From NCBI RefSeq assembly GCF_005503625.1, contig NZ_SCMX01000008.1, positions 62,001 through 126,000 on the forward strand: a DNA stretch of 64,000 bases, given 5' to 3'. Numbering within the stretch: the stretch's first letter is position 1; each line of letters opens with the position of its first letter. The notes under the pieces are model-generated. The model searched no databases. It worked only from the letters and a program-made list of their open reading frames with translations, and had not been told where the DNA came from. Source of the stretch: Cupriavidus sp. 2SB (GTDB lineage Bacteria > Pseudomonadota > Gammaproteobacteria > Burkholderiales > Burkholderiaceae). Of this stretch, positions 19,601 to 50,644 are shown piece after piece. Both the position numbers and the translations under genes were made by a program.

Positions 19601-22189
<2,589 letters not shown>

Positions 22190-22236: not shown

Positions 22237-22245
22237 AGTAGCAAG

Positions 22246-22287
22246 GCAAAGCCCCCGCCCGCCATCACGGCAGGCGGGGGCTTTTTC
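22246..22287 (+). terminator. Terminator of clpB
   Basis: AAAGCCCCCGCC (22248-22259) pairs with GGCGGGGGCTTT (22273-22284), and the T run continues to 22286. The flanking A and T tracts make it potentially bidirectional. Confidence 0.85.
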
Positions 22288-22382: not shown

Positions 22383-22424
22383 TTGATTTGCATCAATTCA
22401 GGAATCGGGGCAAATGGCTACTAT
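22383..22424 (+). promoter_or_regulatory. Predicted FNR/Anr-dependent promoter
   Basis: TTGAT-TTGC-ATCAA (22383-22396) matches all ten positions of the FNR/Anr consensus. TACTAT (22419-22424) places transcription start at about 22431, exactly 41.5 bases from the centre of the box. That is the standard class II activator position. No protein gene begins in the expected range; a short terminated transcript does. See the next entry. Confidence 0.7.
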
Positions 22425-22430
22425 TCACTC

Positions 22431-22528
22431 CGTCATGGAGATGCGGGGGCGCTCTTCATGACTTGTCTACCCGTTTCCGGAATGGAAACTTGGCCCGCAG
22501 CGCTTCTCCGGCGCTGCGGGTTTTTTCT
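22431..22528 (+). ncRNA. Candidate FNR-controlled small RNA
   Basis: The span from the predicted start to the T run is about 97 bases and folds as three separate hairpins. The first pairs GTCATGGAG (22432-22440) with CTTCATGAC (22454-22462), with a G-rich 13-base loop. The second pairs GTTTCC (22473-22478) with GGAAAC (22484-22489). The third is a terminator, CCCGCAGCGC (22494-22503) with GCGCTGCGGG (22511-22520), then TTTTTTCTTT. No credible reading frame with a ribosome-binding site lies inside. The design parallels FnrS-type sRNAs of other bacteria, but I see no sequence match I can name. Expression is unproven. Confidence 0.65.
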
Positions 22529-22623
22529 TTTGGGCGTGTCGCTGACGGCTCTTCCCCCATCCCCTCGCATACCCATATTCCCGCCCGGTCTTATGCACTT
22601 TTCGTGCTTGGATCGATGAAACC

Positions 22624-22750: not shown

Positions 22751-23758
22751 ATGATTCGCAAACTGGCTATTGGCCTGGCCGTACTGTCCGCCCTCGGCGC
22801 TGCCCAGACCGCCTTCGCCGCCACCAATCTGCTGAACGTGTCCTATGACCCCACGCGCGAGCTGTACGTGGACGTGAACGCCGCGTTTGCCAAGGCGTAC
22901 AAGGCGCAGGGTGGCGACGCGGTGCAGATTCGCCAGTCGCACGGTGGCTCGGGCAAGCAGGCGCGCTCGGTGATCGATGGGCTGGACGCCGACGTGGTCA
23001 CGCTGGCGCTGGGCTACGACATCGATGCCATTGCCGAGAAGGGCCTGATCAAGCCGGACTGGCAGAAGCGCTTGCCACACAACGCCTCGCCGTACACCTC
23101 GACCATCGTGTTCCTGGTACGCAAGGGCAATCCCAAGGGCATCAAGGACTGGAACGATCTGGTGAAGCCGGGCGTGCAGGTCATCACGCCAAACCCGAAG
23201 ACCTCGGGCGGCGCGCGCTGGAACTACCTGGCTGCGTGGGGCTATGCACTGCGCCAGCCGGGTGGCAATGAAACCAAGGCGAAGGAATTCGTCGGCCAGT
23301 TGCTCAAGAACGTGCCGGTGCTGGATTCGGGCGCACGTGGCGCCACCACGACGTTCGTGGAGCGTGGCCTGGGCGACGTGCTGATCGCCTGGGAAAACGA
23401 AGCCATCCTGGCCATCAAGGAACTGGGTCCGGAGAAGTTCGACATCGTGGCGCCGTCGGTCTCGATCCTGGCCGAGCCGCCGGTGGCTGTGGTCGACAAG
23501 GTCGTCGACAAGAAAGGCACGCGCAAGGCTGCGGAAGCCTACCTGCAGTTCCTGTACACCGACGAAGGCCAGGAAATCGCGGCCAAGAACTACTACCGTC
23601 CGATTTCCGAGAAGGTGGCGGCCAAGTACGCGGCCAACTTCCCGAAGGTGAAGCTGTTCACGATCGACGAAGTGTTCGGTGGCTGGGCCAAGGCCCAGAA
23701 GACCCACTTTGCCGATGGCGGTTCGTTTGACCAGGTCTACCTGCCTGGCAAGCGGTAA
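22751..23758 (+). CDS. sbp: Periplasmic sulfate-binding protein
   Basis: The 335-residue protein has a clear signal peptide ([23 protein letters not shown]) and the sulfate/thiosulfate-binding protein motifs [37 protein letters not shown] and [19 protein letters not shown]. It captures sulfate in the periplasm for the CysTWA transporter. That transporter is encoded 6 kb downstream, beyond the ssu genes. GGGAGC precedes the ATG. A strong hairpin after the stop (23767-23797) separates it from ssuA. Confidence 0.94.
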
Positions 23759-49324: not shown

Positions 49325-50644
49325 TCAGTGATGCTTGTCTTCGCCGATCATCGCCAGCGAGTTGTAGACCTTCACGTTGTGCTTGTGCAGGCGCATCACC
49401 AGCGCCATGGTCGCGCAGATGAACAACCCCAGCGCCACGATGACGAAGCCGATCGGCACATTGAGCTTGATCAACAGTGCGTACAGGCACAGCATCAGCA
49501 GCACCGACACGTTCTCATTGAAATTCTGTACGGCAATCGAATGGCCGGCGGACAGCAGCACGTGTCCGCGGTGTTGCAGCAGCGCGTTCATCGGCACCAC
49601 GAAGTAGCCCGACATGGCACCCACGATGGCCAGGAATACGTAGGCGATGGCCATGTGTAGCGGCATCGCCATGCCCAGCACGTCAAGCGTGACGGCCGGC
49701 ATGGTGTCCTTGGTATAGAACGCCATCAGCATGACGGTGGCGCCCATGGCCACCCCGAACGGCAGTACTGACAGCGAGCGGCGCAGCGGAATGCGTGCGG
49801 CAGCCGCGATGGCACCCACGGCCACACCCACGGCCACCACGGCCTGCAGCAGTGCGCCCTGCGAGAGATTCAGGCCCAGCGACTTCTCGGCCCACTTGAG
49901 CACGATGAACTGCAGCGTGGCGCCCACGCCCCAGAACAGCGTGGTCACGGCCAGCGAGATCTGGCCCAGCTTGTCGCGCCACAAGGCGATAAAGCAGTCG
50001 CCGAACTCGGCAATCAGCTTGATGGGGTTCTTTTCCTGCTGGGGATAGCGGGCGCCGGTGTCCGGAATGAAGAAGTTGAAGACCGCCGCGATCAGATAGA
50101 AGAACATGATCACCACCATCGCCGCTTCGGCGGGGGTGGTGATGCCGGTGTCGATGAAGGGGAGGTCCCAGCTCAGCAGGATAGACGACAGGTGGACCGA
50201 GATCAGCGCGCCGCCCACGACGGTGCCGAGAATGATCGAGCCGACCGTGAGGCCCTCGATCCAGCCGTTGGCCATCACGAGTTTTTCGGGGGGGAGCAGT
50301 TCGGTGAGGATGCCGTACTTGGCGGGTGAGTATGCCGCCGCGCCGAATCCGACGATGCCATAGGCCAGCAGCGGATGCAGTCCGAACATCATGATGGCGC
50401 AGCCGACGATCTTGATCGAGTTGGTGATCAGCATCACCTTGCCCTTGGGCATCGAATCGGCAAAGGCGCCCACGAATGCAGCCAGCACCACATAGGACAA
50501 CACGAAGAACAGCTTGAGCAGCGGGGTCATCCACTGCGGGGAATGCAACTCGGTGAGAAGGGCAATGGCTGCGATGAGCAAGGCATTGTCGGCCAGCGAC
50601 GAGAAAAACTGCGCGGCCATGATTGTGTAGAAACCCTTCTTCAT
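49325..50644 (-). CDS. lplT: Lysophospholipid transporter LplT
   Basis: LplT is an MFS flippase that brings lysophospholipids from the outer to the inner leaflet of the inner membrane for reacylation. The 439-residue product starts [30 protein letters not shown] and has about 12 hydrophobic segments, with [20 protein letters not shown] and [22 protein letters not shown] 50644 matches the family start; a longer frame from ATG 50806 would add 54 residues of no known domain. The acyltransferase Aas is not adjacent. Confidence 0.93.

Follow-up and report, generated by a model that had tools for sequence, protein, structure and literature searches.

Introduction

The E. coli RNA FnrS is a small RNA (sRNA) activated by FNR. 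More generally, the sequence TTGAT-N4-ATCAA centred at position -41.5 represents a class II FNR activation site. Members of the genus Cupriavidus (H16, metallidurans and the Mimosa symbionts) are models of how bacteria use hydrogen, denitrify, make plastic (PHA) and break down pollutants. Other described sRNAs also offer points of comparison. In Pseudomonas, PhrS is listed as an ANR-regulated sRNA of 213 nt (PMC6321483). The Rfam family RF02278, named "Betaproteobacteria toxic small RNA", includes bdhR1/ncS27 and Bordetella S17, and its members are predicted to block the ribosome-binding sites (RBSs) of transport and catabolism genes (PMC5688073, PMC11722255). Finally, NmsR/RcoF of Neisseria (RF02877) are sibling RNAs acting on metabolic mRNAs (PMC5688073).

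Here we describe a predicted sRNA gene found in a window of Cupriavidus DNA (the whole 64-kb stretch that was analysed), which covers bases 62001-126000 of contig 163 in a genome of 7 Mb. Judging from comparisons among related sequences, it is part of a real, new and genus-specific family of FNR-box sRNAs, although the functional kind is already known. Our literature search returned no description of this RNA, nor of any oxygen-responsive sRNA in Cupriavidus; the RNA may be listed in the supplement of a tagRNA-seq study of C. metallidurans, the main account of which gives 35 putative sRNAs under copper stress (PMC7563307).

A predicted small RNA with an FNR-type promoter

The candidate gene is located on the plus strand between clpB (19601-22189) and the sulfate-binding protein gene sbp (22751-23758), both in the same orientation. 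Its promoter is composed of an FNR/Anr-type box, TTGATTTGCATCAA (22383-22396), which is the sole TTGAT-N4-ATCAA sequence in the 64-kb window, and a -10 element, TACTAT (22419-22424). The start site inferred from these elements is at 22431, which places the centre of the box at -41.5, the class II position. The only other TTGA-N6-TCAA sequence of the window (49461-49474) falls within a long minus-strand open frame and is probably due to chance.

The predicted RNA is about 100 nt long (22431-22530), with a minimum free energy (MFE) of -51.5 kcal/mol and a z-score of -5.87; none of 200 shuffled sequences folded as well. Hairpin 1 (22432-22462) contains 13 bp, a bulged U and an invariant GCG-GGGG-CGC apex with a GGGG loop. 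It is followed by a linker, UUGUCUACCC (22463-22472), which is unpaired in the MFE structure, and by hairpin 2 (22473-22489), a 6-bp GUUUCC/GGAAAC stem with a variable loop. The RNA ends with an intrinsic terminator (22492-22530) whose 13-bp stem, including nine GC pairs, spans 22492-22522 in the MFE structure and leads into the U tail, TTTTCTTTTG. The positions of the box and the -10 element, their spacing and the three hairpins with a terminator had all been proposed in a first-pass annotation of the window, and our analysis bears them out. The same annotation held that both neighbours have their own signals; clpB is followed by a terminator-like hairpin at about 22245-22285, and sbp starts at 22751.

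Comparison with described small RNAs

No named RNA family had been recognized at this locus, and the Rfam search likewise produced no match anywhere in the window. With low thresholds, the matches did not exceed 24 bits and were all well under the gathering scores of their families. The likeness to FnrS is one of general organization: an FNR-type promoter, a short RNA and a proposed shut-off of aerobic metabolism at low oxygen. The Cupriavidus RNA, however, belongs to another lineage, has a hairpin at the 5' end where FnrS has a free seed, and is accompanied by several sister genes; the FnrS family of Rfam gave no sequence or covariance match among those listed up to E = 5. PhrS shares control of the Anr/FNR class but is 213 nt long against about 100 nt here, and it had no Rfam match in the window. 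The layout of hairpin, pyrimidine-rich linker, hairpin and terminator is that of NmsR/RcoF, from which the Cupriavidus RNA differs in sequence and promoter (NmsR covariance score of 17.7 bits relative to a gathering score of 52).

The linker is also reminiscent of RF02278, in which a CU-rich seed, likewise unpaired, adjoins hairpin 2 and the terminator. The linker, UUGUCUaCC, resembles the seed UGUCUCC of RF02278/bdhR1/S17 with one extra base; this proposed seed, UUGUCUACCC, looks related to the CU-rich seed of that family, and its complement is conserved at nicT-like gene starts. The differences are the additional 5' hairpin and the FNR-box promoter, and the covariance score of 17.0 bits is below the gathering score of 50. 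By the tests made, the predicted RNA is outside each of these families, yet its expected way of working is that of FnrS, PhrS or NmsR. Separately, the host genome presents five matches to RF02278 (toxic small RNA/bdhR1 type), two of them above the gathering score (G000:C174:120421, C4:17761, C93:56947, C83:52039 and C52:950).

Conservation across Cupriavidus

Using blastn, we identified the gene itself in the host genome and an orthologue in 58 of 59 further genomes sampled from the genus; the sole genome without one is 54% complete. In most species the orthologue is found 3' of clpB and 0.3-0.5 kb 5' of sbp. Across 59 unique promoters of these orthologues, which we call type A, conservation reaches 95-100% at the positions of TTGA and TCAA and 97-100% for the TAnnAT pattern of the -10 element, whereas most other columns between and around these elements are conserved at 30-80%. 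The FNR-type box was present in all 81 type A and type B promoters with enough upstream sequence (type B is described below). The half-sites are kept while the centre of the box drifts, a pattern expected of selection for binding.

The structure of the RNA presents the same signal. Hairpin 1 was found in 34 distinct versions, in which 93.4% of cells were paired and five pairs had changed on both sides; the rows of this alignment were gathered by requiring GCGGGGGCG, so that the invariance of the apex within it arises by construction. The covariation score of hairpin 1 was reached by none of 500 shuffles, and slid controls were all far lower. A second alignment (A1) was built from blastn matches then filtered only on the apex TGCGGGGGCG, and apex invariance is to be read with like caution there; no blastn match that spanned hairpin 1 and contained the box was without the apex. 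In the orthologues, the pairs of the terminator stem are likewise kept through two-sided changes, and the linker UUGUCUACCC is constant in nearly all type A copies. The box, the -10 element and the stems are all conserved together in relatives, and this comparison strongly supports the earlier proposal of a small RNA transcribed from a class II promoter of the FNR/Anr type.

Sister RNAs and limits of the family

One point of the initial proposal changes here: as far as sequence comparison can tell, the sRNA at 22431-22530 does not stand alone and is one member of a multi-copy, Cupriavidus-specific family. The host genome carries a type B copy on the minus strand (G000:C20:8759-8853), whose hairpin 1 and box are as in type A and whose linker and hairpin 2 differ. 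A covariance model raised the number of copies to as many as five per genome and added types C, D and E. All types tested are predicted to fold as hairpin, linker, hairpin and terminator (z-scores of -4.5 to -8.2), and a TTGA- or TTAA-N6-TCAA-like box was found about 48 nt 5' of the RNA in every sister copy inspected. The sister genes share the invariant 5' hairpin, the promoter layout and the distance of the box, and have different middle regions. In nine type D loci, the boxes resemble TTTAATCC-N-GTCAA and are combined with a CTAGAAT -10 element, which is closer to a Dnr/NnrR-type site.

Several copies are carried by plasmids. Plasmid pHG1 of C. necator H16 carries a type-A-like copy with the box TTGACTTTGGTCAA, flanked by phaP2 and hmpA and close to napEDA. 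Further copies with an altered seed were found on C. taiwanensis plasmids (near hypDE) and on pSym of C. necator UYPR2.512. Five copies of this plasmid type retain the box and hairpin 1, but their linker is changed, in most cases to UUGUCAACUC, as though they had acquired other targets; at least two of the five are on named plasmids (pSym and C. taiwanensis plasmid I). Types B, D and E had no match in PLSDB.

Pattern and covariance scans covered 300 genomes from the family, 399 from the order (representing 158 genera) and, more widely, 84,980 species, and they identified no credible member outside Cupriavidus. The records named Ralstonia sp. 25mfcol4.1 and Burkholderiaceae bacterium 16 carry family members, and we take them to be Cupriavidus. 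Eight covariance matches outside the genus were rejected as tRNA/terminator or unrelated hairpins without the box or the G-loop. Matches to the FNR box plus GCGGGGGCG in other genera of the order were judged to be due to chance, as were five non-Cupriavidus matches from a scan of genome contigs.

Candidate targets and proposed mechanism

The first-pass annotation suggested the G-rich loop (22441-22453) as the site of pairing with targets. In our reading the seed is most probably the linker UUGUCUACCC; the loop is invariant in all sister RNAs, which differ elsewhere, and so looks like a shared module. We searched 21 genomes for the complement of the linker 5' of an ATG and found a recurrent site, GGGTAGACAA-N2-3-AGGAG-N4-ATG. 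The exact 10-nt complement, GGGTAGACAA, is located 5' of the upstream ORF of a nicT-like transporter gene in 28 of 28 close orthologues, one of which was checked for the complement only as GGTAGACAA, by position. This site lies anywhere from about 166 to 246 nt 5' of the main ATG. In addition, GGTAGAC overlaps the RBS of the main nicT-like gene in 27 of the 28, one species having three tandem copies; in the exception, GGTGGACAA, pairing is kept through G-U. The upstream ORF of these 28 orthologues is short (about 15-20 codons, MSYQYQ...LPG or MTYxYx...) with a strong SD of its own, and it may encode a leader peptide.

The nicT-like gene encodes an MFS transporter whose nearest NCBIfam families are cation and aromatic-acid transporters, with scores below their cut-offs. 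Molybdenum-hydroxylase/cytochrome c genes lie 5' of it, and maleate isomerase (E 7e-111 to PDB 4fq7) is encoded divergently nearby; from this setting we infer a cluster of the nicotinate-catabolism type. The start of the maleate isomerase gene carries GGGTAGAC or, at one locus (L365), GGTAGACAA. In the host's own clade, the same 9-mer occurs at the RBS of a CMD-family gene (the host genome and one other, G053), of an AMP-dependent acyl-CoA ligase gene (three species) and of an aromatic-acid symporter-like MFS gene (one species). The host genome is without the nicT-like site, and its best candidate is the CMD-family gene with a 9-bp match.

Credible gene starts were found at 7 of 21 own-clade sites combining seed complement and ATG relative to 2 of 29 for a permuted control (Fisher p 0.02), these being small numbers classified by eye against one control motif. 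Across the genome as a whole, there is no enrichment of the seed complement (14 matches vs 81 for the reversed pattern), and the energies of the candidate duplexes (-13.6 to -22.8) are mostly inside the background, whose 5th percentile is -16.5. The common beta-proteobacterial RBS GGAGACAA resembles GGTAGACAA without an inserted T, so that drift of RBSs could mimic targets. A 15-nt perfect complement in the host genome (G000:C139:14007-14021) was set aside as it lies within an MFS-like coding frame. Allowing one mismatch to a 12-base seed complement did not reveal any convincing RBS in the host genome save a weak one 5' of a DUF2892-like gene.

We consider it probable that the RNA at 22431-22530 is an FNR-induced, trans-acting sRNA, the founding type A, whose seed blocks translation of genes for uptake and oxygen-dependent catabolism. 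Comparative evidence argues for the existence of the gene and its promoter, and the regulation by oxygen and the targets are what we infer. At low oxygen, an FNR-type regulator would bind at -41.5 and activate transcription, as suggested by the conservation of the promoter. The 5' hairpin with its invariant G-rich tip would act as the shared module, with which a protein or a second RNA may make contact. The 10-nt single-stranded seed would pair, presumably assisted by Hfq, with GGGUAGACAA-type RBSs, and translation would be blocked. The genes repressed would be those by which aromatic or carboxylic substrates are taken up and degraded in an oxygen-dependent manner: the nicT-like transporter and maleate isomerase genes of the nicotinate-type cluster and, in other species, the aromatic-acid symporter-like MFS, acyl-CoA ligase and CMD-family genes.

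Alternative explanations

It is conceivable, albeit unlikely, that the RNA is an FNR-controlled sRNA whose working part is the G-rich hairpin, which would bind a protein, RF02278-type CU-rich sRNAs or C-rich mRNAs, the seed matches at RBSs being coincidental. The hairpin is the only part common to all sister RNAs, GGGGG is able to pair with CCUCC, of the RF02278 members encoded in the genome at least two exceed the gathering score and contain CU-rich stretches, and the lack of genome-wide enrichment of the seed complement would be expected. On the other hand, the near-constancy of the linker in type A orthologues and its exact complement in 28 of 28 nicT-like leaders speak against this reading, and the GGGG loop is closed by a 3-bp GC cap that leaves just four free bases. 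The identity of the activator can also be questioned. Another member of the CRP/FNR family, such as an NO-responsive regulator of the Dnr/NnrR type, might use the box; the TTTAATCC-N-GTCAA boxes of some sister genes have this flavour and the pHG1 copy adjoins hmpA and nap. We regard this as improbable: the type A box is TTGAT/C-N4-A/GTCAA, and the genome encodes two [4Fe-4S]-type FNR proteins that combine a C-x2-C-x5-C cysteine motif with a matching recognition helix, LETVSR (ETVSR), the two features not being found together in any other family member whose frame was read. One of these two proteins was scanned and scored 216.4 bits to NCBIfam Fnr, just under the cut-off of 228.

The remaining alternatives dispense with a free sRNA. 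In most species the RNA precedes sbp and is read in the same direction, which would fit a cis-acting leader or attenuator of that gene. This is very unlikely given that a strong and conserved terminator lies about 230 nt ahead of the start of sbp and that copies are found elsewhere without sbp (on pHG1, on the symbiotic plasmid, at the type B-E loci and in the basilensis clade). It is hardly credible that the AUG at 22458, within hairpin 1, starts a gene for a small protein or leader peptide and that the G-rich tract serves as its RBS. The spacing from the tract to the AUG is kept in most copies, but the reading phase from the AUG to hairpin 2 changes from one orthologue to another, each of the three phases being represented (39/19/4), the ORFs range from 3 to 57 codons and some copies have lost the AUG; this agrees with the first-pass view that there is no credible coding frame. 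We retain the FNR-induced, trans-acting sRNA as our preferred reading.

Implications

The family is genus-wide, has no Rfam entry, follows a clear promoter logic and leads to concrete predictions, including for pHG1 of strain H16. If the nicotinate and aromatic targets are true, the sRNA would constitute a post-transcriptional link from oxygen sensing to the shut-down of oxygenase-dependent catabolism. A more speculative possibility, toward which we remain somewhat sceptical, is that the siblings form an oxygen regulon. They would share an FNR-type promoter and an invariant G-tipped 5' hairpin as a common module recognized by a protein or by CU-rich sRNAs, each sibling would have its own seed, and copies would move on megaplasmids into denitrification and symbiosis islands. 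The sister sRNA gene of pHG1 (222720-222820 of the record) is unannotated and is located in a denitrification island.
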